33,185 nt of DNA. It comes from Deltaproteobacteria bacterium. Lineage in GTDB: Bacteria > Myxococcota > Myxococcia > Myxococcales > JAHFDP01. The DNA lies in assembly GCA_023248955.1 (NCBI GenBank), contig JAHFDP010000049.1:1-33185 (forward strand), written 5' to 3'. Under the pieces are notes generated by a model. It had not been told where the DNA came from, searched no databases, and worked only from the letters and a program-made list of their open reading frames with translations. Of this stretch, positions 16,325 to 32,803 are shown one piece after another. How positions within the stretch are numbered: the stretch's first letter is position 1; the number at the start of each line of letters is the position of its first letter. A program made the translations under genes and the position numbers.

Positions 16325-17041
16325 ATGGTCGATCGCTCCATGCGCCAAGCACTGCTCACGGCACTCGATGCTATCGCGCGACCCGAAGGCGTGATGGCGC
16401 GCGCGGTGACCAATCGCAAGTGGGGAATCGCACTGGCCCTCGTCGCCGCGGCCACGATGTTTGGCGCGGCGGCCATGTCGGCTCGACTCGATGCGCGGCC
16501 GGCCGCACTAACCGCGCTCGAGCAAGAAGGAAAACTTCACGACGCCACCGATCGCGACATTGCCGAGGCCACACAAAAAGAGCAGCGCCTGACCACAGCC
16601 AAGCTCCTTGGCGTCGCGCTCGTTCAGCCCTGGATCAGCGCTGCGCTTTTGACGCTCGGCATCGCGCTGGGCGCGTGGCTCGTCGCGGCGCGACTTTCGT
16701 GGGGCGCAGCCTGGGTGATCGCTTGTCATGCATTGTTGCCACAAGCGATCAAGAATGTAATCGCAGGCGCCGCGGCGCTTTCACGGTCGTCCTTGTCGCT
16801 TTCTGCTGCGCGCGATCTCGTCGCAGCCAGTGCCGCCCCACTCTTTCACGGACCCTTCGCGCACCTCGCGGCCCAACTTGATCTTTTCGCAATCTGGTCG
16901 GCGCTGCTGGTGGCCTTCGGTGTGGCCGCGGTGGCCAGAACACCGCGACCGCGTTGCATCGCAATCGCGCTGGCCGGTCTCGGTTGTTGGGCGGCATTGC
17001 TGTTTTCCATCTCGAACGGCGGGAGTCACCACGGTGCATAA
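16325..17041 (+). CDS. Yip1-like multi-pass inner membrane protein
   Basis: 238 aa from ATG at 16325. The N-terminus (RQALLTALDAIARPEGVMARAV) is cytoplasmic-looking. Five hydrophobic segments follow: about 33-52 (WGIALALVAAATMFGAAAMS), 93-115, 118-140, 185-206 and 212-230. Between the first two lies an exposed helical loop (LDARPAALTALEQEGK). Topology and the HALLPQAIKNVIAG block resemble Yip1-family proteins. It overlaps the TolC gene by eight bases and heads the six-gene export operon, so I infer a role in that system, for example assembly or substrate access. Exact function unknown. Confidence 0.65.
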   Translation: MVDRSMRQALLTALDAIARPEGVMARAVTNRKWGIALALVAAATMFGAAAMSARLDARPAALTALEQEGKLHDATDRDIAEATQKEQRLTTAKLLGVALVQPWISAALLTLGIALGAWLVAARLSWGAAWVIACHALLPQAIKNVIAGAAALSRSSLSLSAARDLVAASAAPLFHGPFAHLAAQLDLFAIWSALLVAFGVAAVARTPRPRCIAIALAGLGCWAALLFSISNGGSHHGA

Positions 17042-18419
17042 CGTGTATTGCATACGAATACTTTCGATCGCGTTTGTCATCACCGCTTCCGCGCGTGCGG
17101 AGCCGTTGACGCCCGAAGCCGCCGTCGTCCAAGCGCTGCGGGCACCCCAAGCTACCGTCTCGCGACTCGCGGCGCGCATTCCGGAATCCGACGTGGTGCT
17201 GGCGCGATCGGCCATTCTGCCGCGACTCGATCTCAACGCGTCCGCCGCGCGCAACTTTATCGGCGACCGCACCGTCAATTTGGCCTCGCCCGTCCTCACC
17301 AAGGACGCTAGCGGCAACGACACGTTGTCGTTCTCGCAGCAGCAACGCGAAGTGACCGGCCAATCCACACCGGAGTGGGCCCTCGGCGCGACGGCGACTC
17401 AACTCGTCTACGACGGCGGAAAATGGAACGCCAATCTCGAAGCCGTGCGCGCCGCGCTGCAATCGGCGGGCGCTCTGCGCGATGAGGCGCTGCTGGATGT
17501 GGCGCTCACCACTTGGACGCGGTTCTTCGAGACGGTGCGCGCCGAACAGTCGCTGGCCACGCTCGACGCCGCCATCACCCGGGACACCGCGCAGGTCGAC
17601 GCCGCCGACAAATTGTTCGAGGCCGGTCGCGTGTCCAAGAGCGACGCACTGATCGCGCGCGCCAACCTCTCGCAAGATCGCCTGGTGCGAATCGCGGAGG
17701 CACGCGCGCTGGCGCAATCGAGAACCGATCTCGTCGCCGCACTTGGTGGCACGGTGGACGCCACTTGGCTCGCGCCTGGCGATCTGCTGGTCGACGTTGC
17801 CGCCGCGCCAACGCTTCCGGAAAATCTCGCACAGGCCAAATTGACACGACCACTGCTGCGTCAGCTCGCGCACAACGTCGCCGCCGCGGAAGCCAATGCA
17901 CGCGCGGCGCAGGGTGCCTGGTCTCCGACCGTTTCACTCTTCGCGAACTATAGCCGCCAAGGTCCGGTCCTCGGCGACGTGCTTGGAAATCCCGCTCGCC
18001 AATATTCCGCGAGCGCGGGCGTGCAGGGAACGTTCAATGCATTCAGTGGATTCGCGACGCAGGCCTCGGTCGAAAAGGCGCGCCTCCAAATGGAGCAGGC
18101 GCACATGCAAGTCGCCGTCGCCGAGACCACCATCGCCAACGAAGTTTCGCGTGCGCACGAATCGTTGGCGAGCGCCCGCGCCGCGCTGACCGCCGCCGCG
18201 GAGGGTGAACGCACCGCCACCGACGCCGCGGATTTCGCGCAGCAGCGTTACGCCGTAGGCCAAGGAAGCCTGCTCGAAGTTCGCGATGCCGCGCTTAAAG
18301 TCACGCAGGCCAGGTTGGCGCGCCTCTCCGCCGGTGTCGATGCGCGTGAAGCGCTCGGCGCGTTGCGCCGCGCCGTTGGAATCTCGCCGACCGGAACAGC
18401 ACTCGAGGAGACCAAGTGA
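17034..18419 (+). CDS. TolC-family outer membrane efflux protein
   Basis: 461 aa from GTG at 17034, chosen because GGGAG at 17021-17025 lies eight bases upstream and the start gives a signal peptide (MHNVYCIRILSIAFVITASARA); the longer open frame is a shadow of the upstream gene. Two TolC repeats are visible: LDLNASAARNF..WALGATATQLVYDGGKWNANL and TVSLFANYSRQG..YSASAGVQGTFNAFSGFATQASVEKARLQ, each followed by a long helical hairpin (FEAGRVSKSDALIARANLSQ; YAVGQGSLLEVRDAALKVTQ). It forms the outer-membrane and periplasmic duct of a tripartite pump. Stop overlaps the MacA start (GTGA). Confidence 0.93.
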   Translation: MHNVYCIRILSIAFVITASARAEPLTPEAAVVQALRAPQATVSRLAARIPESDVVLARSAILPRLDLNASAARNFIGDRTVNLASPVLTKDASGNDTLSFSQQQREVTGQSTPEWALGATATQLVYDGGKWNANLEAVRAALQSAGALRDEALLDVALTTWTRFFETVRAEQSLATLDAAITRDTAQVDAADKLFEAGRVSKSDALIARANLSQDRLVRIAEARALAQSRTDLVAALGGTVDATWLAPGDLLVDVAAAPTLPENLAQAKLTRPLLRQLAHNVAAAEANARAAQGAWSPTVSLFANYSRQGPVLGDVLGNPARQYSASAGVQGTFNAFSGFATQASVEKARLQMEQAHMQVAVAETTIANEVSRAHESLASARAALTAAAEGERTATDAADFAQQRYAVGQGSLLEVRDAALKVTQARLARLSAGVDAREALGALRRAVGISPTGTALEETK

Positions 18420-19635
18420 TTCGCCGAATCGTCGTCGCCGTGATCATTCTCGGCGGGATTAGCGCTGTTACATTGAAAAGCTTACATCCAAAACCCAAGG
18501 AGCCGGTGGAGATTTCGCTCGCCGAAGCCAAGAAAGAGCGTGTGGTGCGAACCGTTTCCGGCGCCGGACATCTGCAAACGGCGACGCTGGTGAAGGTCTC
18601 CTCCAACATCACCGGCGAGCTGCTTTCGCTCACCGTCAAAGAGGGCGATTTCGTCCACCGCGGACAGGTCCTCGGACAAATCGATCGCCGCCGCTACGAC
18701 GCGCTCTATCGATCGCATCTGGCGTCGATTCGAGCTGCGGAAGGCGACGTGCGCGTGCAACAGTCGCAAGAAGCGCGCATGCAGGCCGAGCTTGGTCGGC
18801 TGCGCAAACTGCGCGCGCAGAATCTCGCCGCCGACGCCGACGTGCAGACCGCGGAGACGAACCTGGCCACGAATGCCGCGCAGATCGCCACTGCGCGCGA
18901 ACGGGCGCAGCAGGCCAGCGCCATCGCGGAAAGTGCTCGCACCGATCTCGCGCAAACCACGCTGGTCTCGCCCATCGACGGCACGGTGCTGGAGCTGAGC
19001 CATCGCGTCGGCGAACGCGTGCGCGGCAGCGATTTTCAAGAGGACGTGGTGATGTTGCTTGGCAGCCTCACCGCCATGGAAGTCAAAGCGGAGGTCGGCG
19101 AGCACGAGGTGGTGCACATCAAAGAGGGCCAGCGCTCGACGGTGGAGATCGACGCCATTCCCGATCGCGAAATGCACGGTGTGGTGGTGGAGGTTGGCAA
19201 AAACGCCATCGTGAAAAATCCTGGCACCGATGCCGAGGTGACCACGTTTCCAGTACGCGTTTCGCTGACCGATGCGCCGCCCGAAGCGCTGCCAGGCATG
19301 AGCGCGCAGGTCTCCGTGGAGACCGAATCGCACGACGGCGCCATCACCGTTCCGGTGCAGTCGGTGACGGTGCGCGAAGCGACGCCCAAAAAACAGGAGA
19401 CGGGAACGTTGCCCGCTTCGACGTCCAAGGGAAAACTCATCAAGGTTGTGTTCGTGGCCAAGGACGGTAAGGCGGTACAGCGCGCGGTGCGGCTGGGCAT
19501 CGCGGGCCGCAGCGCGGTCGAAATTCTCGAGGGACTCTCCGCGGGCGAGCAGGTGGTCGAAGGCCCTTACCGCGTGCTGGCGCGCGAGCTCAAAGACGGC
19601 GACGCGGTGACGCAGAAAAAGGAAGTAGGCGGCTG

Positions 19636-19636
<1 letters not shown>
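18416..19636 (+). CDS. MacA-like periplasmic adaptor (HlyD/RND-type membrane fusion protein)
   Basis: 406 aa from GTG at 18416 with GAGGAG five bases upstream. One N-terminal membrane anchor ([16 protein letters not shown]) is followed by a split lipoyl domain ([19 protein letters not shown] and [14 protein letters not shown]), a long helical hairpin between ([40 protein letters not shown]), then beta-barrel and membrane-proximal domains ([56 protein letters not shown]). It bridges the ATPase/permease in the inner membrane to TolC. Overlaps the ATPase start by one base (TGATG). Confidence 0.94.
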
Positions 19637-20449
<813 letters not shown>

Positions 20450-20460
<11 letters not shown>

Positions 20461-21688
20461 ACTCCGCCGCGCATTCGTCGAGCTCTCCGAATCGTCGCGT
20501 CAAGCATTCGGCGCTTTGCGCACGCATCGACTGCGCACCGTGCTCACCGCGCTCGGCATCGCCGTCGGCGTGGCCACGGTCATCGCCATCGCCGCTGTGA
20601 TTAGCGGCCTCAACAGTTCGTTCACGCAACAAGTGGAAGCACTCGGTCCACATTCGCTCTTCATCTCACCACGTCCGATGATCTCCCGCGGCGACTGGTG
20701 GAACTACCGCAACCGTCCGGCCGTCGGCTGGGGGGAACTGCGCGCGCTGCGAGAAAATGCCACGCACCTCGCACTGGTCGTCCCGAGTGCGCGCACACAC
20801 GGTTCCGTTCGTCGCGGCGACGAACATGTCGACGACGTAGAAATCATCGGCACCGAGTCCGAGTACGCCACCGCCAGCAATCTGCGCATCCAGCAAGGCC
20901 GCTTCCTCACCGACGTGGACACCGCCGCCAGCCGTAACGTGGTTGTGCTGGGCGCGGATCTCGGTGAGATGCTTTTCCCGAGCGGCGACGCCCTCGGCAA
21001 CCGCGTGAAGATCGGCGCGCAGCACTACGAAATCATCGGACTGCTCGAGCGGCGCGGCGCCATCATGGGCAAATCGCTCGACGCCATCGCGCTGATGCCG
21101 GCACTCACTTTTGCGCGCGGCTTCGGACTGCACCGCGGACTCACCATCGCCGCGGTCGCCAAACAAGACGAGGTCAACGAAGCCGAAGACGAGATCATCG
21201 GCATTCTGCGCCGCTACCGAAAATTGCCGCCCGAGGTGGCGGACAACTTCGCGGTGAACCGCCAAGAAGCGCTGCTCTCGTTTTACAAAGAGATGACTGG
21301 CGGACTTTACGCCGTGGCATTTGGCGTAGGCCTCATTTCGCTCGTCGTCGGAGGCATCGGCATCATGAACATCCTGCTGGTCTCGGTGAAGGAACGCACG
21401 CGCGAGATCGGCGTACGGCGCGCACTCGGCGCAAGGCGGCGAACGATCCTCGGGCAATTTCTCCTCGAAGCGCTAGCGCTCTCGTCGCTCGGCGGATTCT
21501 TTGGCACCGCGCTCGGGCTCTTCGCCGCGCAAGTCGCCTCCTGGCTCACCCCGCTCGCCGCGCGCGCGGCGCCGAGTGTGGTGCTGCTCGGGGTACTCTT
21601 CTCCGCCAGCGTGGGCGTGATCTTCGGCGCCTGGCCCGCTTGGAATGCGGCGCGGCTTCTTCCCGTCGAAGCATTGCGTTACGAATGA
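20450..21688 (+). CDS. MacB-type ABC transporter permease 1 (FtsX-like)
   Basis: 412 aa from ATG at 20450, overlapping the ATPase stop. MacB topology: first helix at about 25-48 ([27 protein letters not shown]), a large periplasmic MacB_PCD domain (residues 50-280, with [14 protein letters not shown] and [19 protein letters not shown]), then three C-terminal helices with the FtsX core: [40 protein letters not shown] and [17 protein letters not shown]. It ends with the usual [12 protein letters not shown]. It is one half of the transporter, presumably paired with permease 2. Mechanotransmission, not membrane transport, is the known mode of this family. Confidence 0.95.
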
Positions 21689-22938
21689 TCTCGAAAGTAA
21701 TACGTATGACGAACGCACGACAATCGATCGACGATGTCATACTCGCATTGAAAAGCCTCGCGGCGCACAAACTGCGTAGCGTGCTGGCACTACTCGGCAT
21801 CGTAATCGGCGTGGCCTCGGTCTCTAGCATGATGGCGCTGACCAGCGGTCTCACGCACAGCATCGAAAAAGGAATGGCCGGTCTCGGCGCCAACGTTTTT
21901 CAGATGCAAAAGCAACCGGTCGGATTTCACTTCGGCCGCAACGCCAAATACGAATCGCGCAAAAAAATCACTATGGCCGACGTCAACGCGGTTCGCGCGG
22001 GCACGCCCCACGCGCGCCAGGTGGGCGGTGAAACGTGGGACGGCGGGCAGAAAGTCGTCGGTCCCGATCGCACCATTCCCAACGCCTTTATCGCCGGCGG
22101 CACCGCCGAATTCTTCGATAACAACAACCTGCCGATCGCCACTGGCCGCCCCTGGAATACCGGCGAAGCCGCGGATGGATCGCCAGTCACCATCCTTGGT
22201 TCGGACATCGCCGAATCGCTCTTTCCCGATGGCGACGTGCTCGGAAAACACGTTCGCGTGGCTGGCGCGGTCGTCGAAGTGATCGGGGTCCTCGCCAAAC
22301 AACACAGTGCGGTGGGCGACGACTCCGGAGAGCTGGTGTCGATCCCTTTCCCGCTCTTCGCGCGGCAACTCGGCGTCCACCGCAGCATCAACATCACCGT
22401 CATGGCCGAATCACCAGCGCTGATGGCGCGCGCCCAAGACGAGGCCACCGTGGCCTTGCGCAAAAGTCGCGGCGTCGCAGCCGGCGACGACAACGATTTT
22501 GATATCTATTCAAACGAATCGCTTCAAAAGACTTTCGACGACTTCGCCGGTATGGTCGCGGCCGCGGCGATCGCGCTCTGCGCCATGGCGCTGGTGGTGG
22601 GCGGCATCGGTGTGATGAACGTGATGCTGGTCGCCGTCACCGAGCGCACGCGCGAAATCGGGTTGCGCAAAGCGCTAGGCGCGCGCCGGCGCCGCATCCT
22701 CACGCAGTTCGTTCTCGAGGCCACGGCGCTCTCAGCCACCGGCGGATTGGCAGGCCTCGCGCTCGGATGGATCGTGGCGTTGGTGGTGCGCACACTCACC
22801 GAACTTCCTGCCGCCGTTCCTGCTTGGGCTGCCGCGGCGTCGCTTGGCAGCGCCTGCGCCATCGGACTGATCTTCGGCATCTACCCCGCCGCACGCGCCG
22901 CCGCCCTCGATCCGGCGGTGGCGCTGCGGCAAGAATAG
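21685..22938 (+). CDS. MacB-type ABC transporter permease 2 (FtsX-like)
   Basis: 417 aa from ATG at 21685, which overlaps the previous stop as ATGA; an ATG at 21706 is the alternative. Same architecture as permease 1: helix 1 [24 protein letters not shown], a periplasmic domain with [15 protein letters not shown] and [21 protein letters not shown], then [35 protein letters not shown] and [18 protein letters not shown], ending [15 protein letters not shown]. Two different permeases with one ATPase suggest a heterodimer. The substrate is unknown; family members export peptides, lipoproteins, antibiotics or siderophores. A REP-like palindrome follows the stop. Confidence 0.95.
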
Positions 22939-23311: not shown

Positions 23312-23345
23312 CCTCACGGATGGCGGTTTCCAGCCACCCGTGAGG
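23312..23345 (-). terminator. stem-loop after the cysteine-rich lipoprotein operon
   Basis: CCTCACGGATGGC (23312-23324) pairs with GCCACCCGTGAGG (23333-23345), 13 positions with one mismatch and an 8-nt loop. It lies 11 bases beyond the stop at 23356 in the direction of transcription. The sequence after it on that strand is only moderately T-rich (CTTCCTTCT), so it may be a weak intrinsic terminator or an mRNA-stabilising hairpin. Confidence 0.45.
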
Positions 23346-23355
23346 TCCGTTTTCC

Positions 23356-25263
23356 CTAGTTGCAGGTGCCCGACGCCAGGATGCAGTGCGCTTGGTGCGC
23401 GCCGCTGGTGCAGCACTGCTCACCCGTCGCGCAACCGGCCGTGTCGGAGCAGCTCAAGTAGCAGTGCCCGTTGTTCGCGCCAACGTTGGTGTCGCAATAG
23501 TGCGTGCCCACCGTACCGCTCGGATTGCACACGGTCGCTTCGTTGGCGAGATTGCAAGCTGCCACGCACGTTCCGCTCGCGGTATCGCAAACGTTGCCGG
23601 TGCCACAGGAAGCGTCCGTCGTGCACTTGGGAATGCAGTGCGCGCTGGCATCGCAGATTTCCGTGGAGCTACACGGGTTGGAGTTGGAGCAAGCGGGCTT
23701 GCAGTGTCCCGTGCTGAAATTGCAGACGTTGCTGCCGCAAACCGTGGCCTCGTTGCTCACGATCGTCGTCTTGCCTCCGGCCGCCGCGACCGTTGCTTTC
23801 CAGCAACGCGAGACGCAAACGCCGCCCTCGCAAACCGCCGAAGCGCCGCAAGCGTCGTCGCTCACGCACTTGACCTGGCACGCACCGGCCGAGCTGCAAG
23901 ACCGCGGGAACTTCGTCGCGTCCGCCGAACCGCAGTCCGTCGCCAAAGTCGTTCCGGTCTTCCCCGTGCACGACGGGAAGCAGAGTCCGTTGGCCTGCTC
24001 GCAGGAAGGCTTGCAGAAGCCCTTCTGAGTGTCACAAACACCGCCGCCACAATCGGCGTCCTTGCTACACGCATCCCAACGCGAACAGGTACCCGCGGCC
24101 GAGCAGGTTTGCCCCTTGCCGCAATTGGTCGTGGTCGTCGCGGTGCAGCGGACGGTCTGCGGAGCACAATCCGCATCCGCGTCGCATTCGCGTCCCAAGC
24201 AGACCCCCTGCGTCGCGGTGAAACTCTGACACGAGTAGCCGGCCACCTTGCATGCGGTCTGGTCGCCAACCGCGCAGGTGGGCAGGCAGTTGCTGAGCGT
24301 GGGATCGTCGCCCGCCCCATCACATGCCGCGGACGAACAAGCCGCGGGCCAACAAACGTCGTTTGCAAAAGCTGGATTATTCGTGTCGTCGGGCGTCACG
24401 AACCGCATGCAAACGCCGCTCGCCTTAGCGCCGTTCTTGTCCGAGGCCAGGAAGGTCTCGCAGAAGAGATCCGCCTTGCAGGGGTGCGTGGGATCGCAGG
24501 CTTGCGCCTCGTCCGCGCAGTCGGCTTCCTTCTTGCCAGCGAAGAGACACTCGTCCTGCCAGATACATCCGGGGCCTTTTGCGCCCTGGCCGAGGAAGAG
24601 CGCGGGCTCGCAGGACCAGCCGTTTTCCTGACGGCACTCCGCAGAGGTCTTGCAGGCCTCGACGCAGATGCAGTTGGCGCCGGTGCCCAGCGGGATGAAG
24701 CCTGGCGAACACGACGCGTTTCCGCACGACTTCAGACAGGCACCACCGGGGACCGAGTTCTTGGCTTCCGTCCGGCACAGCGCCTTGGAGTCTTTGCACT
24801 TCGTTGCCGCACCGTCGCATGCGCCACCCTCTTCACCCGGCTTGGGCGTAACGTTGGCAACGCAAGAAGCAGTGGCGGAATCGCAGCGTTCATCGATGGC
24901 ACACTTGCTCGAGGAAGCCATCTTGACGGCGCAAGCGTCCGCGCAAGTTCCCGTGTTTGGATCGCAAACTTGGCCGGTCGTGCACGGCGAGTTCCCGGTC
25001 GCGGCCGTCGGTTGCCCGTTTACGCATTTGGAGACGCACGTGCCGTTATCGCAGATTTTCGTCACGTCATTGGTGCAGGCCGCGTCGCAAGTCTTGGTTT
25101 CACATTTTCCGTTCGTCTTGTTGCAGGTCTCACCGGACTGGCACGTAACGGCCGCACAGAGGTTGGTGACCCCACCGTCCGTCGGCGTGCCGCCGTCTCT
25201 CGTGCTCGAGGGACAGCCAAAGAGAAGTACCGACAAAGCCAAGCTACAAAGTGCGCGATTCAT
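23356..25263 (-). CDS. cysteine-rich lipoprotein (86 Cys in 635 aa)
   Basis: 635 aa from ATG at 25263; the Shine-Dalgarno AAAGGA overlaps the stop of the preceding gene. The signal peptide ends in a lipobox (LSVLLFGC), so a lipid-anchored surface or periplasmic protein is expected. After a Gly/Thr/Asp linker the whole chain is built of short modules with Cys spaced every 3-7 residues: CNKTNGKC, CDPNTGTC, CDADADC, CSKDADCGGGVCDTQKGFC, CTTDASCGTGNVCDTASGTC. All 86 cysteines I counted probably form disulfides. No enzyme domain is recognised. Last gene of a four-gene operon with a sister protein, a metalloprotease and a barrel. Such proteins are frequent in Myxococcota but functionally uncharacterised; adhesion or matrix roles are guesses. 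Confidence 0.85.
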   Translation of the reverse strand: MNRALCSLALSVLLFGCPSSTRDGGTPTDGGVTNLCAAVTCQSGETCNKTNGKCETKTCDAACTNDVTKICDNGTCVSKCVNGQPTAATGNSPCTTGQVCDPNTGTCADACAVKMASSSKCAIDERCDSATASCVANVTPKPGEEGGACDGAATKCKDSKALCRTEAKNSVPGGACLKSCGNASCSPGFIPLGTGANCICVEACKTSAECRQENGWSCEPALFLGQGAKGPGCIWQDECLFAGKKEADCADEAQACDPTHPCKADLFCETFLASDKNGAKASGVCMRFVTPDDTNNPAFANDVCWPAACSSAACDGAGDDPTLSNCLPTCAVGDQTACKVAGYSCQSFTATQGVCLGRECDADADCAPQTVRCTATTTTNCGKGQTCSAAGTCSRWDACSKDADCGGGVCDTQKGFCKPSCEQANGLCFPSCTGKTGTTLATDCGSADATKFPRSCSSAGACQVKCVSDDACGASAVCEGGVCVSRCWKATVAAAGGKTTIVSNEATVCGSNVCNFSTGHCKPACSNSNPCSSTEICDASAHCIPKCTTDASCGTGNVCDTASGTCVAACNLANEATVCNPSGTVGTHYCDTNVGANNGHCYLSCSDTAGCATGEQCCTSGAHQAHCILASGTCN

Positions 25264-25274
25264 AAGTTTGTCCT

Positions 25275-27239
25275 TTAGTTCGAGCAGATGGTGTCGCCGT
25301 TGGTGGATTTACAGAGATACCCCGCGCGGCAATCCGTGCCGTTCGGGTCGCAGCGCTTCATACACTGCGCGGAGCCAGACATGTTTTCACAAACGCTTCC
25401 CACGGGGCACTGTGCGGTCGCGCCGCAGGGAGAGGCCGTGCAGTAGCCACCCGGGTTTCCCGCGCCGATCGCGCAAATTCCGCCAGGGCCGCAGTCGCTG
25501 TCGTGAGCGCAGGCCGCGCCTATGTTCACCGCGCTGAAATCGCGCCGGCAAGTTCCGGTGTTGATGTCGCAGGTGAAGCCCGCACCGCAGTCGTCGAGGC
25601 GCGTGCACTTGAGCACACAGTGCGAAGTCGCCAGGTCGCAGCGCTCGTTGGATCCGCAATCGCTGGCCGTCGCGCAGTTGGGATGACAGTGGCCTGCCAG
25701 GCCGCAGTATTTTCCGCTCCCGCAATCGCCATCGTTCACGCATCGGGGCTCGCAAAGGCCGCTCGGTCCGCAGAAGGAGGTGGCCGGGCACTCCTCGTCA
25801 GCGACGCACGGTGGCAGACAACGGCGCTTGGTCGTGTCGCAAACGCCATGGCCATTGCAGGCGTCGTTCGACAAACACGCCGTGTAACAACGTCCGGTGC
25901 CCTTGTCGCAAACGCGGCTGCCTCCGCAGTCTTTGTCCTGCGCGCAGGGCTGCTCACACCGGTTGGCCACCGGATCGCAGTAGGTCGGAATCGTGCAACT
26001 GGCGCGCGTACACTCAGTATCTTTTCGGCAACCGGGATAGCAGACGCCGCTGGTCGTTCCGTAGCAGGCATAGCCTGGGCGACAGGAGACGGAAATGGTG
26101 GCGTCGCAGGTGCTCAAGCAGCCAAACGAGAGGCCGCAGTAGTCGAGTTGCACGCAGGGTGCGCCGCCCGGGCAGCCCGCACCAAAGCCGCTGCAATCAA
26201 AAGCCATGCAGTAACCGCCCGGAAATTGCGTGAGACAACTGGCCCCGGCGACACAATCCGCATCGTGGCTGCACGTCCCGCCGATCGGCGAACAGCCGGC
26301 GCCCGTGCACGAGGAGGGCGACCGTTTCGGGAAGCAGAACCGGCGAGCGTCACCGGTGCTGACGGAGGTGCAGGAGTAGCCGTCGCGGCAATCGTCGTCC
26401 AGCAGGCACAAATCCAGGCAAAGCTTGATGCCGAAATCGACGCAAGCCGCACCCGACGCGCAGCCACCTTCGTCACAGCTGGCCGAGCAGTAACCACCGT
26501 TCGTAGCGAGAGCGGTGAAGAAGGTGTCGCCGATGCAGAATGGCGAGCTTCCCACCTTCGAACAGTCCGACGATTTCGCGCAGGGCGATCCGATTTCGCC
26601 CGGACTGGCCTGCCCCGCCGGAAGCGCGATGCAACGGCGTGTGTCGACGTCGCACACTTTCCCCTCGCCGCAAGGCGCCCCGCAAACGCCACCGCTGGGC
26701 AGGCACTTCCCGGTCGCCTGTTCGCACGCTGTATCGGGACCGCACTGACAGAATTGCGGGACGTTGCCGGGACCGTTGGCGGCGCACTGATCGAGCTCAC
26801 ATTTCCCGCTGGCGAGATTGCAGTACCTGCCGGCATCGCAGCAGGCGTTGCAATTGCCAACGCTCTCGCAAAGGCCATTTTGCGGATTGCAGGACTTGCC
26901 CGCGTCGCATTTCCTTTCCGCACAGAGATTGGTGGGATCAATCGCCTTGCACGCACCCGTGGTCGCATCGCACTTCTGGCCAATCCCGCAAACGATCCCG
27001 TCGCATGGCCCCGCGCATCGACCAACTTTTGCGCCAGCGTCAACGACGCAGTGCTCGTCCGCTTTGCACGTCACCGTCGCGCAGGGACTCACCGCGCTGC
27101 ATTGCCCGGTCGTCGCCTCGCACGTAAAACCGTCGCCGCATTGCACGCCATCGCAAAAGCCGTGCAAAGACGACGCAGACGGGCAGGCCGCGAAAAACGC
27201 AGCCATACCGACCGCGGCGAGAATGGAAGACGCGCGCAT
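25275..27239 (-). CDS. cysteine-rich lipoprotein (99 Cys in 654 aa)
   Basis: 654 aa from ATG at 27239. The signal peptide MRASSILAAVGMAAFFAAC has a lipobox-like FAAC. The mature part is an almost continuous array of EGF-like or Dickkopf-like cysteine modules: CGDGFTCEATTGQC, CDAGKSCNPQNGLC, CAQDKDCGGSRVCDKGTGRC, CVNDGDCGSGKYCGLAGHC, CTRLDDCGAGFTCDINTGTC. I counted 99 cysteines, about 15 percent of residues. Many modules carry an acidic D-x-D-C triplet that could bind calcium. Sister of the next gene downstream (11-bp gap) and 11 bp after the metalloprotease. Heavy disulfide formation implies an oxidising periplasm or an extracellular site. Confidence 0.85.
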   Translation of the reverse strand: MRASSILAAVGMAAFFAACPSASSLHGFCDGVQCGDGFTCEATTGQCSAVSPCATVTCKADEHCVVDAGAKVGRCAGPCDGIVCGIGQKCDATTGACKAIDPTNLCAERKCDAGKSCNPQNGLCESVGNCNACCDAGRYCNLASGKCELDQCAANGPGNVPQFCQCGPDTACEQATGKCLPSGGVCGAPCGEGKVCDVDTRRCIALPAGQASPGEIGSPCAKSSDCSKVGSSPFCIGDTFFTALATNGGYCSASCDEGGCASGAACVDFGIKLCLDLCLLDDDCRDGYSCTSVSTGDARRFCFPKRSPSSCTGAGCSPIGGTCSHDADCVAGASCLTQFPGGYCMAFDCSGFGAGCPGGAPCVQLDYCGLSFGCLSTCDATISVSCRPGYACYGTTSGVCYPGCRKDTECTRASCTIPTYCDPVANRCEQPCAQDKDCGGSRVCDKGTGRCYTACLSNDACNGHGVCDTTKRRCLPPCVADEECPATSFCGPSGLCEPRCVNDGDCGSGKYCGLAGHCHPNCATASDCGSNERCDLATSHCVLKCTRLDDCGAGFTCDINTGTCRRDFSAVNIGAACAHDSDCGPGGICAIGAGNPGGYCTASPCGATAQCPVGSVCENMSGSAQCMKRCDPNGTDCRAGYLCKSTNGDTICSN

Positions 27240-27250
27240 GGATGGAGTGC

Positions 27251-30200
27251 CTAGTTGTTCAGCCCAAAAGAGACGCGCACTTGATTGACGGTATCGAGAA
27301 ACGATTCGCGATTGAGGAGCCGATTCTTCAAATCATCGACGAGGCGCGTCTGGCAGTCCAAATCGAGCGTGGCGGACGTTGCGCTGACAAAGCGACAAAC
27401 GTCGTTTTTATGCGCCGTATAGAGCCCGTTGAGCTGCGACCCAGTAAGCCCGGCGTATTGATTAAGCTGCGCAGTAATTGTGGAGGCTTCTTTAACAAGC
27501 GGGAAAATAATCGACCGCGTATCCGGCGTCTGCACGGCGATATAGGTCCGCGAACGCAACGGCGATACGTACTGAACGGTGTCCTGGCCATTGGCGTTGA
27601 AATGAACCTGCGGCTGCCCGAAGACGTAGAGCTGCAGATAGTCCGGATAGGTGCGATCCCAGAACGACTGGTAACCCTGAAGTGACAAAACCAACGAAAC
27701 GAACTGCAAGTAAACGCTACCCTGCGCCGGGGAGATGAGATCGGCCGTTGCGTACCGGGTCGCCGGCGGACTTCCGGCAGGCGAAAAGACCGGGGTAGCC
27801 AATCCGAAATCGGCCGTTGTCGCGCCGAAGATTTTACCCTGCCAAATATCGCGGTAAGCGAGCTGCGGACTACCGGTAGCCGTGGAAACCGTCGGTGCGA
27901 AACGGGTCAAGTCGCCGCTGATAAGGCCCGTAAAGAGATCGAGCATTTCGTTTCCAAATCCGTCGTAGAAGTTGAGCGGGAAGGTTTCATTGTTGACGAA
28001 AGGCTGACCCCATTCGCGGTTGGTGAGGGCGAGCATGGCGAGGATCTTGTCCTCGAAAACACCGGTTCGTGCGAGCCGCTCAATGGCTCCGTAGTAGCCT
28101 TTTTCGTACGTCGAATAGAGGAATTTGCCGACACCTAGACAAGCGTGGAAGTAGTTCGGATCGTTTAGATGCGCGTTGCAGTCGCGGCTCGTGATGTCAT
28201 AGAGCTGCCGGTGCGATCCGTCCGGGTTGGTCGACAAAATCGTCGGCGTGTATTCGCCCACGTCGGGCGTTCCGAGCACGCGCACGAAGAAGTCCATCGC
28301 AGTGACCGAAGCCTCGAGCATGTCGCTGAACGATCCATGGCCGTTATTAAGCAGCGACTTTTGGTTGTAATAGACCTGAAATAAGAGCGAGGCAAACTGC
28401 TTGCCCATGGGACGGTAATAGCGCGTCCAAATACGGTTCATATAACCGCCCCCGTAATATTCACGGTAACGGCGAAAGTTATTAAAGACGTAGTTGCGCT
28501 CGTAAGAATCAATTAGGTTCTGCACGATCGCGGTTGAGCTGGGGCCTTCATCGAAGCGGTTGCAGAAGGGCTTGTCGTCGACGCGCTCGTCCGAACAGAA
28601 ACGAAATTGAATCGGCGGGTGCTTCACCGCATCCTTGGCCGAGTCCGCGTCCCACGAGGTACACACCTTGGAGACGCCGTTCAGGATACTTTCGCAAGAT
28701 TGGCCAACCTTATTATAGGGGCAATCCGTGTCCGCTGTGCACTTATCGCCACCCATATAATAGGGCACCGTGGTGCGGTTGCTGTGGCTCGCATTGGCTG
28801 GGCCGTCATAAACGGTGGCAAGTTGTCCGTATCCAAACCGAATGGCCGCCTTATCATATTCGCCGAGCCCGGCCAGGTCGGTATAGAATTGCCCGCCGTA
28901 ATCCATAATTGACGAATATTGGTAAAGCTTCACGCCATCTTTTTCGCGGGCATACCGGGCCGTATCGCGCGCCGTGTTGTAAGCGCTAAATTCGCTCGCC
29001 GAGAGAGGCAGCGGATGGCCGCCCACAGCGAACGTCGTTGGATCCGGCTCCGGATTCTTGCTGAGCTTGTCCCAATAGCTCGGAATGTAGTTCTCTTCGT
29101 CGAAGGATCCCTCGAAATTGTGCCGCAAACCCATCGTATGACCGACTTCGTGTTCAATTACCGCGCGGTAGATAATGCCCATAATCCAATTCATCGCTTG
29201 ATCGCGCGACATGGGAGGCGTCTGCGCTTTTGCACGATCAACGAGGTGCTGCACGGCATTATCGATAAACGTGTTCGCGTGCATGACGCAATACTTGCTC
29301 AGCACGTTTTCGAGCTGGTCAGCCTGGTCTCGTTGCTTCGTAAACCCAGCGCGAAAAGGCGAAATGGAGTCGAGGAGATTCTCATCGAGCGGCGCATCGC
29401 TGCTCACGCCCATCATGTTTCGCCATTCGATGTTGTCGACGAGGATTTTCTCGACGTCGCTCCCGGCAAGCTTGGTCCCCTCGGCGTTGCGCGCCTCGCG
29501 ACCCATGCGCTTTAACTCATCCCACTTGAGCTTCTTGTCCGCCAGCGCATCCTGGAACTTGGAAATAGACTCCGCGTCGGGGCTCCCCACAAAGCGTTGC
29601 GGTACGGACGGCGGGAAGGAGTTGCCGGCGAATTTCTCGTAGTACTCTCGAACATTTTCGCCTGTCTCGACCTGCTGCTCGGTCAGGTTACCGGAGACCA
29701 GGTCGTAGACGTCGCCAACGTAGCCCGCATAATTGTCGAGCGCGCCACCGAAGATGTTGGCCACGGCGCTTCGGATCTGACCGGTCTCCGCGTCCGCGAG
29801 CCAGCTTGCAACGCCAAGCGGCGTTCCGCTGCCCGCCTGATCGACATAAGAAATAAAACTGTAACGAACGTCGCCGAGGCGATAGCACCAGCGAGGGTTC
29901 TTTTCGGTCGAATCGTGATCGAGATTAGCATTGCAATCCTTGACGTTGTCCTTGAGCACGAAAATGTCGTGCTTGGCCGGGTCGAAAGCCTCATTCGGAG
30001 CGGGCGCGCCGTTGAAGGTGCACGCGATTTTGTCATCGCTGATGTAGCCGGGTTTGGTTGGATCGACGAAATTCTTGGGTGTGAACGATATACCAAGCAA
30101 GTGCGAAACCGTGTCCTTATACGTCTCGTTCCATTGCTGAACGGTGCGGCAGGAATAGCCTCGGTATTTGTCCATGACGCCTGGGATTTCGTAGAATTGC

Positions 30201-31282
30201 GGCGTGAAATAATAGACGATTTGCTGAATCCCGCGTTGCGCATAAGGCATCGTGCAAATACCACCGCGCAAATCGGGAGCGCTCAATGCCTCGGGGAGCG
30301 CAGGGGCCCGCTTGTCGCAGACCGCTCCGTCGCCGGCGGTGCCGCCACACTCGGCGTCTTTCGTGCAGGACTTCGTGGTATGTGTCTTGGCCCAAATATC
30401 CCAGCGATCCATTAAATAATCTTTAAAGTCAGTAATGCCACGGTTGCTGTCATAAAAGGTGCGGGCTTCACGGAAATAACCGAACTTCGCCACCGCATCG
30501 TCATTCCAAGCGTGGTCCGGATAATAGAGAGGCGCATAGTCTGATTCCGGGGCACGCCAGAAACTGTTGCGCAGGTTGATGTGCGCCGGCGAGAGCTGGG
30601 TGTTGGCGGTAAAGACTTGCGGGGTGACGACTTCCTTGGTCATGACCTCGACGTAATCGCTGCGAACCACCTCGTGATTGGGATCGTTTGGAAGGTTATT
30701 GTACTGAACGAGCTCTGATTTAACCTCTCCAAAAATCTTCGCAATGTTGGCGCCAATCAATTCGCCGAATCCGCTAATCCTATTATCTGCCCAATTCACG
30801 CGCATGTATTGCCGGTCGTACCAGGGTCGTTCTTCGGCTTCATAAATAACGGGCATCTCTTCGCCCGTAGCCGGATTGTACTGGTGCCAAATATCAAAGT
30901 GTTTAACGATAGCGAAAGCAGCGACCGGTTCACCCAGGTATCCAGGGTGTGTCGCCCGCGAACCATCGCCGCCCTTGACCGTTTCATAGGCTCGATAAGC
31001 CCAAAGTGTACTCTCTGTTATTTTCCACGTTATTTTTTCGCCGGGATAAGAGGTATCACCGACGAAGGTCCAAAACGCCTCATACGGATGGCCGATTACC
31101 GTCGACTTCCAAAACCATTTTGATGGCGTCGCGGTCTCGCAATCGGGCCATGTGTCGCTGGCGGAATTGCAGGCGATCATTGCCTTGGCCACTTTGTCCG
31201 GCTGCGTGGTATCGCGCGTCGGTTGGTAAGACGCGCAAGCGAAAGTGGCGGCAACAGTGGCGAAAACGAAAATGCGACGCAT
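27251..31282 (-). CDS. large exported zinc metalloprotease (metzincin-like, DUF4953-type)
   Basis: 1343 aa from ATG at 31282. N-terminus MRRIFVFATVAATFACASYQ is a signal peptide with a possible, imperfect lipobox (TFAC). The zinc site HEVGHTMGLRH (His711, Glu712, His715, His721) has the extended HExxHxxGxxH form, and a Met-turn SSIMDYGG follows with Met793, as in metzincins. The wide flanks resemble the long bacterial zinc-dependent metalloproteases annotated with DUF4953. Two cysteine-module inserts stand out: SCTKDAECGGTAGDGAVC (around 30370) and KCTADTDCPYNKVGQSC (around 28740), the same type as in the two lipoproteins downstream. Probably acts at the cell surface on proteins. Second gene of the operon, 21 bp after the barrel gene. 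Confidence 0.88.
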   Translation of the reverse strand: MRRIFVFATVAATFACASYQPTRDTTQPDKVAKAMIACNSASDTWPDCETATPSKWFWKSTVIGHPYEAFWTFVGDTSYPGEKITWKITESTLWAYRAYETVKGGDGSRATHPGYLGEPVAAFAIVKHFDIWHQYNPATGEEMPVIYEAEERPWYDRQYMRVNWADNRISGFGELIGANIAKIFGEVKSELVQYNNLPNDPNHEVVRSDYVEVMTKEVVTPQVFTANTQLSPAHINLRNSFWRAPESDYAPLYYPDHAWNDDAVAKFGYFREARTFYDSNRGITDFKDYLMDRWDIWAKTHTTKSCTKDAECGGTAGDGAVCDKRAPALPEALSAPDLRGGICTMPYAQRGIQQIVYYFTPQFYEIPGVMDKYRGYSCRTVQQWNETYKDTVSHLLGISFTPKNFVDPTKPGYISDDKIACTFNGAPAPNEAFDPAKHDIFVLKDNVKDCNANLDHDSTEKNPRWCYRLGDVRYSFISYVDQAGSGTPLGVASWLADAETGQIRSAVANIFGGALDNYAGYVGDVYDLVSGNLTEQQVETGENVREYYEKFAGNSFPPSVPQRFVGSPDAESISKFQDALADKKLKWDELKRMGREARNAEGTKLAGSDVEKILVDNIEWRNMMGVSSDAPLDENLLDSISPFRAGFTKQRDQADQLENVLSKYCVMHANTFIDNAVQHLVDRAKAQTPPMSRDQAMNWIMGIIYRAVIEHEVGHTMGLRHNFEGSFDEENYIPSYWDKLSKNPEPDPTTFAVGGHPLPLSASEFSAYNTARDTARYAREKDGVKLYQYSSIMDYGGQFYTDLAGLGEYDKAAIRFGYGQLATVYDGPANASHSNRTTVPYYMGGDKCTADTDCPYNKVGQSCESILNGVSKVCTSWDADSAKDAVKHPPIQFRFCSDERVDDKPFCNRFDEGPSSTAIVQNLIDSYERNYVFNNFRRYREYYGGGYMNRIWTRYYRPMGKQFASLLFQVYYNQKSLLNNGHGSFSDMLEASVTAMDFFVRVLGTPDVGEYTPTILSTNPDGSHRQLYDITSRDCNAHLNDPNYFHACLGVGKFLYSTYEKGYYGAIERLARTGVFEDKILAMLALTNREWGQPFVNNETFPLNFYDGFGNEMLDLFTGLISGDLTRFAPTVSTATGSPQLAYRDIWQGKIFGATTADFGLATPVFSPAGSPPATRYATADLISPAQGSVYLQFVSLVLSLQGYQSFWDRTYPDYLQLYVFGQPQVHFNANGQDTVQYVSPLRSRTYIAVQTPDTRSIIFPLVKEASTITAQLNQYAGLTGSQLNGLYTAHKNDVCRFVSATSATLDLDCQTRLVDDLKNRLLNRESFLDTVNQVRVSFGLNN

Positions 31283-31303
31283 TGAGGACCTCGGTTAGTC
31301 GGA

Positions 31304-32278
31304 CTAGAGCAGCGTGTAATCGACGCTAAAAAACATTCCAGCGGTGCGGGTATCGAAAACGCCGGGAATGCCAAAATGCAGCGCACCCTGCCCCGGTGCG
31401 GTTGCCCAAATGTGCTGACCGTCGCTCATCTGCGGCCCGGAATTGCCGAGCGAGCCCGCGAAGCTAAAACTATCGTTGAGCTTGTAGCTGGCGGAGAGAC
31501 CGGTGGAATAGGCATAGGCGAGGTTGGCAGATGCAGTCTGGTTGTTGCTGTTGCTGGGATCGCTGGATTGGCTTGGCCCATGGTTTTGAGCACGGCTGAG
31601 TCCGAAACGCGCGCCGATGGTCAGCTTGTCGGTGGCGGTCCAAGAGACGCCCAAGCCGTGCGAGATGGACAAAAATCCGTTGTAGCCGCCGCTGCTGTTC
31701 GCGGCGGGACGTGGCGAAGCGCCGTCCCCATAATCGCGGAAAGTGATGGTTTTGACTGGCGAGAGGTATCCGGCCCAGGAGAGTCCGAAGCTGTAACCGA
31801 CGCTAAAGGCCTCGTGAAATTTACGCGAAGCCGACAGCGATCCGCCGAGGTTTCCCCATTTCGAGTCGAACATGACATCGCGGCTAATCGGCGGGCTGTA
31901 GGTTGCCGATCCCTTGAACAAGATGCCGGTGTAGTCCTTCTCCTCCCAGATATCGGCGCCAACGCGAACAAACGTAGAGCCGCCATCGAAATCGAAGCGC
32001 TTGTTGTCCTTGGGCTGTCGGGTGAGATCGACGTAGGGCGAAATGGACGCCGAGACCGTGACCTTGTCGGTGATTTTGTAGCTCGCCGAGAGCGAAATTT
32101 CGTTGTCGTATACGGTCGAGTCCGCATCCGTCTGCAAGCCGAAGCTGTTGATGTAGGCGACGTCCGCGGAAAATTTCTGATCGGGCTTGTTGTCTTCGGC
32201 CTTGGGCGGCACCAGCGCCTGCGCCAACGCGGCTGCCGGCAAGAGCAAGGCGGTGATTAAGACGGAGCGAGAAAACAA
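31304..32278 (-). CDS. predicted outer-membrane beta-barrel protein
   Basis: 324 aa if started at the TTG at 32278, which has GAGGAT just upstream and gives MFSRSVLITALLLPAAALAQ, a good Sec signal. The ORF reaches an ATG at 32371, but that would put 31 non-signal residues in front and lies inside the predicted promoter. The mature part alternates polar and hydrophobic residues in repeated strand pairs (EISLSASYKITDKVTVSAS, GYSFGLSWAGYLSPVK, HGLGVSWTATDKLTIGARFG, LAYAYSTGLSASYKLNDSF) and ends in FFSVDYTLL. No family recognised beyond a barrel; a transporter or anchor for the downstream protease is possible. First gene of the exported operon. Confidence 0.72.
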   Translation of the reverse strand: MFSRSVLITALLLPAAALAQALVPPKAEDNKPDQKFSADVAYINSFGLQTDADSTVYDNEISLSASYKITDKVTVSASISPYVDLTRQPKDNKRFDFDGGSTFVRVGADIWEEKDYTGILFKGSATYSPPISRDVMFDSKWGNLGGSLSASRKFHEAFSVGYSFGLSWAGYLSPVKTITFRDYGDGASPRPAANSSGGYNGFLSISHGLGVSWTATDKLTIGARFGLSRAQNHGPSQSSDPSNSNNQTASANLAYAYSTGLSASYKLNDSFSFAGSLGNSGPQMSDGQHIWATAPGQGALHFGIPGVFDTRTAGMFFSVDYTLL

Positions 32279-32401: not shown

Positions 32402-32803
32402 CTAACGCTCGTCCTCGTTGCTAACGCCGTCGTTTGGTGGGGTGACGCTCCAGCACATCAGGCCCTGGACGCAGTTGAAACGCTGCACGGGATCGTCGAG
32501 GCCAAAGCATCGGGCCACGCGGGCGGGCATGGGATCGGGCGCGGTGTCGCAGCGGACGCAAGATGGAATCGAGGCCGAAGAATTCGACGCGGCGACGGAT
32601 GTTTGCGCGCGTTCTTGGCCAGTGGAAACAGGGGCGATGTCACTGGTGTCGGGACCTGCCGGAGCCGTGTTGACGCTGGACGCGAGCGCCGACGACTCGC
32701 CGACCGAAAGCGCCGCGGGACCGCCGCAAGCAGCGAGGCCGAACAGGTATGCGAGGAGCACGCTGCGCATCACGCGGGGTTTGAATTGCACAACCGGTGC
32801 CAT
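32402..32803 (-). CDS. small predicted lipoprotein (133 aa)
   Basis: 133 aa from ATG at 32803, one base after the stop of the sigma-54 activator, with AAAGGAG six bases upstream; that ribosome site overlaps the end of the activator gene, so the two are translationally linked. Signal peptide with lipobox GLAAC (VLLAYLFGLAACGG). The mature part is a Ser/Thr/Ala-rich linker followed by a short domain with four cysteines (SCVRCDTAP, ARCFGLDD, RFNCVQGLMCW gives more). No family recognised. An anchored accessory protein of unknown role; possibly a signal-input partner of the regulator, by context only. Confidence 0.65.
   Translation of the reverse strand: MAPVVQFKPRVMRSVLLAYLFGLAACGGPAALSVGESSALASSVNTAPAGPDTSDIAPVSTGQERAQTSVAASNSSASIPSCVRCDTAPDPMPARVARCFGLDDPVQRFNCVQGLMCWSVTPPNDGVSNEDER

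Follow-up and report, generated by a model that had tools for sequence, protein, structure and literature searches.

A conserved gene pair for a predicted outer-membrane barrel and a giant lipoprotein metzincin in Myxococcota, with cysteine-rich lipoproteins as an occasional addition

The Slam (type XI) exporters, of which NilB-NilC is an example, are characterized by DUF560, TPR domains and a barrel of 14 strands, and the cargo proteins known for them have an eight-stranded barrel at the C-terminus in common (PMC8406197). In Myxococcus, the outer-membrane protein Oar is tied to the export of the protease PopC (PMC8406197), and the Cys repeats of TraA, which are related to those considered here, have been proposed to form a rigid stalk (PMC3325183). 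On the side of the enzymes, the closest described proteins are the DUF5117-DUF4953 (PF17148, PF16313) Met-zincins of Bacteroidota, Planctomycetota and others, and no relevant paper naming either domain or its accession was found in the literature searched.

The window analysed here, a stretch of 33,185 nucleotides, is one entire contig of a 3.83 Mb genome in 116 contigs that we take to be from the Myxococcota, and it contains adjoining genes for a predicted outer-membrane barrel, a giant zinc metalloprotease and two Cys-rich lipoproteins, LPB and LPA. As in the Slam systems, an outer-membrane barrel gene adjoins a lipoprotein gene; unlike in them, DUF560 and TPR domains were detected in none of the 20 barrels scanned, the barrel has 12 strands in a medium-confidence model, and the lipoprotein is a giant enzyme. 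The likeness to TraA-TraB (PMC3325183) lies in a myxobacterial operon that joins a surface protein with TIGR04201-type Cys repeats to an outer-membrane partner, whereas no PA14, MYXO-CTERM (NCBIfam; C-termini inspected) or OmpA-like domain was found here, the repeats belong to lipoproteins and fall short of the TIGR04201 cut-off, and a protease stands at the centre. Oar is a TonB-dependent transporter and SusC/SusD-like uptake has a TonB-dependent barrel with a plug, but scans of the small barrel of this locus gave neither a plug nor a TonB-receptor match. The protease has the zinc site, the Met-turn and, by profile comparison, an N-terminal DUF5117-like region in common with the DUF5117-DUF4953 proteases, which elsewhere are about 800-1060 aa in length; the family here is about 1200-1900 aa and, unlike those, consists of predicted lipoproteins that have an extended C-terminal half and a barrel dedicated to them. 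As a first-pass annotation of this DNA had supposed, no system of such make-up was found in the literature searched; the two-gene outer-membrane unit of barrel and protease appears to be undescribed, and its function appears to have been studied by nobody.

Gene layout and exported products

The four genes lie in a row on the minus strand with intergenic gaps of 21, 11 and 11 bp (Table 1), and the open reading frames agree with the first-pass annotation in this layout and in the Cys counts of the two lipoproteins. High GC3 and gene-like codon-position GC coincide with the minus-strand frames of all four genes, and the long opposite-strand ORFs over LPA and LPB lose the comparison of codon-position GC to these frames. 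RBS-like sequences (GAGG or AAGGA) were found 5' of the barrel, protease and LPA starts, and a poor one precedes LPB. The claim that every product is exported also agrees with our reading of the sequences: the barrel has a predicted type I-like signal peptide (LLLPAAALAQA) and the other three products carry lipobox-like signals (LLFGC, FFAAC and TFAC). Terminator-like hairpins flank the cluster on both sides, such sites being overall no commoner than in shuffled sequence. The spacing and the hairpins suggest that the four genes form one operon.

Table 1. Features of the locus, with positions in the window
Feature	Position	Strand	Basis
Predicted outer-membrane beta-barrel, 324 aa, TTG start	31304..32278	-	ORF; AlphaFold model; family adjoins protease
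Giant predicted lipoprotein zinc metalloprotease, 1343 aa, 22 Cys	27251..31282	-	ORF; PF16313 match; conserved lipobox Cys
Cys-rich predicted lipoprotein LPB, 654 aa, 99 Cys	25275..27239	-	ORF; Cys repeats
Cys-rich predicted lipoprotein LPA, 635 aa, 86 Cys	23356..25263	-	ORF; local similarity to LPB
Protease N-terminal part, residues 53-522	29717..31126	-	Counterpart in Bacteroidota/Planctomycetota Met-zincins: DUF5117 and the region ahead of the zinc site
Four-Cys insert 1 of protease (CTKDAEC...C...C), residues 306-343	30254..30367	-	Comparable insert at same place in L046, L049 and L050
Zinc-binding motif HEVGHTMGLRH, residues 711-721	29120..29152	-	98 of 101 distinct family proteins keep it intact
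Met-turn SIMDY, residues 791-795	28898..28912	-	M and Y invariant in first alignment
Four-Cys insert 2 of protease (CTADTDC...C...C), residues 848-874	28661..28741	-	Comparable inserts at same place in L037-L040
Tandem repeats of about 22 residues in LPB, residues about 428-563	25551..25958	-	Cys spacing 4-6-6-6/7; about six repeats
Terminator-like hairpin of 13 bp after last gene	23312..23345	-	Consensus match only; T tract weak
Weaker terminator-like hairpin preceding barrel	32398-32383		Consensus match
C-terminal part of putative sigma-54-type AAA+ regulator, Fis-like HTH, cut by contig end	32805..33185	-	Domains named by reading sequence

The truncated regulator gene at the contig end is 51% identical (E 5e-34) to L037_7, its positional counterpart 5' of the barrel in G163, the genome of the closest relative (class level; protease identity 37-41%). 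The order in G163 is regulator, small lipoprotein-like gene, barrel, protease and Cys-rich gene (793 aa, 87 Cys); its regulator is 1272 aa in length and keeps its position upstream of the operon. The sigma-54-type protein is possibly the regulator of the operon; a search 5' of the operon for a sigma-54 promoter gave no -24/-12 site that exceeded chance. Between the small upstream gene of the window (32402-32803) and its G163 counterpart no homology was found (E 0.33). On the plus strand, positions 16830-22938 hold a run of genes whose translations read like an outer-membrane efflux protein, an HlyD/MacA-type adaptor, an ABC ATPase and two tandem MacB/FtsX-like permeases.

The barrel and the protease as a conserved unit

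The first-pass annotation had called the protease metzincin-like, and this was borne out by an intact HEVGHTMGLRH motif and by a SIMDY Met-turn that is aligned in all rows of the family alignment. The sole Pfam match of the protease was PF16313 (DUF4953 Met-zincin), over the zinc site, with a score of 40.6 bits against a curated cut-off of 24.2 and a best stretch covering 33 of 316 positions; DUF4953 was matched by all 23 aligned relatives at E<=1e-3. In single-sequence scans PF17148 (DUF5117) had no match in the window protease and matched 1 of the 23 relatives. A profile of 12 shorter relatives, which come from Bacteroidota, Planctomycetota and Burkholderiales and each carry PF17148 and DUF4953, aligned by hhalign with residues 53-522 at a probability of 99.9% and an E-value of 1.1e-31. 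Because of the DUF4953 match and this N-terminal profile alignment, we place the protease, on its sequence, among the uncharacterised DUF5117-DUF4953 Met-zincins, as a divergent member of giant size. Solved structures gave only weak zinc-site matches, to astacins and matrix metalloproteases. A single-sequence protease query found no match in the genome contigs, and an alignment query was required; plasmids and phages gave no match. At L038:7132-11247, a family member with no barrel nearby carries a natural HExxH to HAxxH change (HAFGHALGLRH, Glu to Ala) and is probably a pseudo-protease.

The lipobox Cys of the protease (C16) reaches at least 90% conservation across the family, and the window protease's own lipobox is weak, with atypical residues at -3 and -2 (T and F). 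The residue at +2 after the Cys is Ala in 55 of 73 relatives and Asp in one. By the E. coli +2 rule such residues favour outer-membrane sorting, and myxobacterial sorting may differ. The +2 Ala would thus favour sorting of the protease lipoprotein to the outer membrane.

The barrel was modelled by AlphaFold2 from 20 sequences, which gave 12 strands with a mean pLDDT of 70.6 and a pTM of 0.73. In a Foldseek search against the PDB, OmpC-like porins, FapF (PDB 5o65) and NanC (2wjr) came out on top; FapF and NanC are barrels of similar size (E about 3e-7 to 5e-7), and their 8-10% identity and moderate TM-scores permit no claim of homology. These matches support a barrel fold in the model and fit polypeptide transport and small-molecule diffusion alike. 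EpsL and OMP_b-brl (PF13505) were rejected as names for the barrel, their scores being below cut-off, and Pfam gave no OmpA match in it. Five of the most conserved positions (130, 132, 135, 197 and 305) map to modelled extracellular loops; extracellular clustering of conservation as such was rejected, the extracellular mean on the model not exceeding the periplasmic mean. Many relatives have long N-terminal extensions ahead of the barrel.

Of 195 genomes surveyed in the phylum, 78 contain the protease family and 75 the barrel family; each of the 75 is among the 78, so that there are no barrel-only genomes; the three genomes with protease and without barrel (G066, G142 and G179) are fragmented assemblies. 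Fisher's test for this co-occurrence gave 5e-51, a value not corrected for phylogeny, which reads only as a near-identical distribution. Of 134 barrel matches, at least 91 have a listed protease no more than 600 bp away; in 85 of these the barrel is upstream of the protease and on its strand, in 5 it is downstream and in 1 it is on the opposite strand. Among the proteases listed, the other 43 barrel matches have none shown alongside. In a six-frame search the barrel was found in a same-strand cluster at 51 of 80 protease loci, usually directly upstream. About a third of the protease loci have no barrel nearby and, because some of these (such as G163:C10) sit well inside long contigs, the protease can stand apart from the barrel. 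A profile grown from the window barrel identified, next to the giant proteases, a single family of homologous barrels. The genes of the fetched loci were called by our own GC-based script, with some starts too long, and the relatives that carry names are mostly MAGs.

The tree distances of barrels and proteases are correlated (r=0.74), and none of 2000 permutations reached this r. The window's own genome harbours two barrels and two proteases, all paired; the second pair (L063, G000:C22:6592-12715) consists of a 350 aa barrel and a 1684 aa protease, both of which group with L065 and L098, away from the window pair. Since both partners of the second pair group elsewhere together, the pairs move as units, and co-inheritance can thereby be told apart from mere species relatedness. 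The two genes form a bicistron alone in Aeromonas australiensis, Ferrimonas kyonanensis and an Aeromonadaceae MAG, where the neighbouring genes look unrelated. We concluded that the barrel and the protease are a conserved, co-inherited two-gene unit.

Often the barrel is followed not by one giant protease but by two in tandem, both from this family, an arrangement that recurs at L041, L043, L056, L058-L060, L062, L069, L070, L076, L091, L095, L100 and others. A Myxococcales-type locus with barrel and tandem proteases, much like L097 and L111, is also present in L102 (CAMDBH010000034.1), a MAG titled Klebsiella pneumoniae; this title or the binning is probably wrong.

Cysteine-rich lipoproteins and cysteine modules

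Counted by regular expression, LPB contains 17 Cys repeats against a shuffled mean of 3.3 (maximum 8) and LPA contains 8 against a mean of 2.1 (maximum 6). The tandem repeats of LPB resemble TIGR04201 (Myxo_Cys_RPT); in the scan against this model (cut-off 25) LPA scored 14.9 bits, below the cut-off, and LPB had no match, and Pfam gave no match in either protein. LPA and LPB are locally similar to each other (E 2e-13), LPB is locally similar to the Cys-rich gene of G163 (L037_3; E 3e-14, composition-corrected), and LPA also shows local similarity to that gene. The Cys-rich proteins were rejected as a conserved family, for at E<=1e-12 the 195 genomes contained no relative of LPA and one partial match to LPB.

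A same-strand Cys-rich gene directly downstream was observed at 7 of about 76 loci (the window, L037, L043, L056, L081, L093 and L094), and most barrel-protease loci are without one. With tandem proteases counted separately, a Cys-rich neighbour was found in 10 of 96 protease slots, compared with 8 of 421 genes farther off. Since the downstream gene is present at so few loci, though above background, the link is facultative: the Cys-rich lipoproteins are a recurrent but facultative addition, somewhat above background. The first-pass annotation had taken all four products to form one machine and had proposed to look for conserved co-occurrence of the four families; what stands of this is the barrel and protease, with their nested distributions and matching trees, and membership of the Cys-rich lipoproteins is only partly supported.

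The same annotation had noticed two inserts of Cys-module type in the protease (around 30370 and 28740), and both are indeed four-Cys inserts at these places (Table 1). Such modules occur in about a third of the family proteases, whether or not a Cys-rich neighbour is present: 3 of 32 proteases with a module have such a neighbour, versus 8 of 69 without (Fisher p=1), and L040 and L046 have protease modules, yet no adjoining Cys-rich gene. A degenerate DNA pattern for the module gave no match in the genome, the pattern being uninformative. Because the modules are unassociated with Cys-rich neighbours, the idea that shared modules serve as docking sites is not supported.

Possible functions of the unit

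The reading that we prefer, and to which we give about an even chance, is that of a surface protein-digesting pair, in which a lipid-anchored metzincin has the barrel as its dedicated partner, be it for anchoring or export of the protease or for uptake of what it releases. The 12-stranded barrel would be made together with the giant protease, which as a lipoprotein would go to the outer membrane and meet its dedicated partner there. The barrel would then hold or deliver the protease at the cell surface, or import its peptide products, and the pair would digest an outside protein, for which prey, matrix or nutrient are possible. Here and in a small number of other genomes, Cys-rich repeat lipoproteins may have joined the operon, most likely as rigid disulphide-braced stalks or adhesins that would present substrate or hold it near the protease; a stalk role, by likeness to TraA, is the simplest guess. 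We infer the physical complex, the surface location, the external proteolysis and the roles of the barrel and the Cys-rich proteins. The variable Cys inserts, the tandem duplication of the protease and the patchy distribution suggest an action on a varied outside protein.

Two alternatives, which we regard as improbable to the same degree, concern the role of the barrel. One makes it a dedicated exporter of the lipoprotein protease across the outer membrane, Slam- or NilB-like and of an unrelated family. The close pairing of the barrel with a lipoprotein, the matching trees, the long N-terminal extensions of many relatives and the similarity to FapF, a 12-stranded polypeptide transporter, are what such an exporter would lead one to expect; NanC and ordinary porins, however, match the barrel about equally well, a pore of 12 strands is narrow for a protein of 1300 residues, and the DUF560 and TPR domains of Slam were not detected in the 20 barrels scanned. 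The other makes it a narrow porin for the uptake of peptides that the protease sets free, so that the two genes would be a nutrient-scavenging locus. The matches to NanC and general porins favour this, the pair does without any other conserved gene in Aeromonas and Ferrimonas, and free-living aquatic bacteria are among the members of the family, but the neighbourhoods inspected showed no recurring permease or peptidase, and ordinary porins rarely track one enzyme so strictly.

Strict linkage would also be given by an enzyme and its substrate, and the protease may act within the envelope on the barrel or other outer-membrane proteins, in maturation or quality control, instead of on an outside protein. 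Disulphide-rich inserts would be as much at home in the periplasm as at the surface; a variable outside target is nevertheless the better match for the giant size, the tandem duplication and the variability of the Cys inserts, and a housekeeping role leaves the presence in only 78 of 195 genomes unexplained, so that we rate this reading slightly below the exporter and the porin. Least probable of all, in our judgement, is the four-protein complex of the first-pass annotation, with protease modules docking to the Cys-rich lipoproteins: the tight four-gene cluster and the order of regulator, barrel, protease and Cys-rich gene kept in G163 speak for it, but the modules do not track Cys-rich neighbours, which are missing from most loci. 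A wider form of the preferred surface pair, which we offer as a long shot, is that giant surface metzincins placed by barrels are an unrecognised class of outer-membrane system, reaching from Myxococcota via Bdellovibrionota to Gammaproteobacteria and furnished with Cys-repeat stalks in some lineages.

The barrel-protease unit is inherited together across predatory and related bacteria. It joins two families without an assigned function, a barrel without a curated family and the DUF5117-DUF4953 Met-zincins, in one conserved unit, and therefore each can be tested through the other, with the bicistrons of Ferrimonas and Aeromonas offering tractable hosts. Should the barrel export or display the protease, surface lipoproteins of Gram-negative bacteria would have one more route; should it import peptides, the two proteins would be a simple surface digestion-uptake pair.
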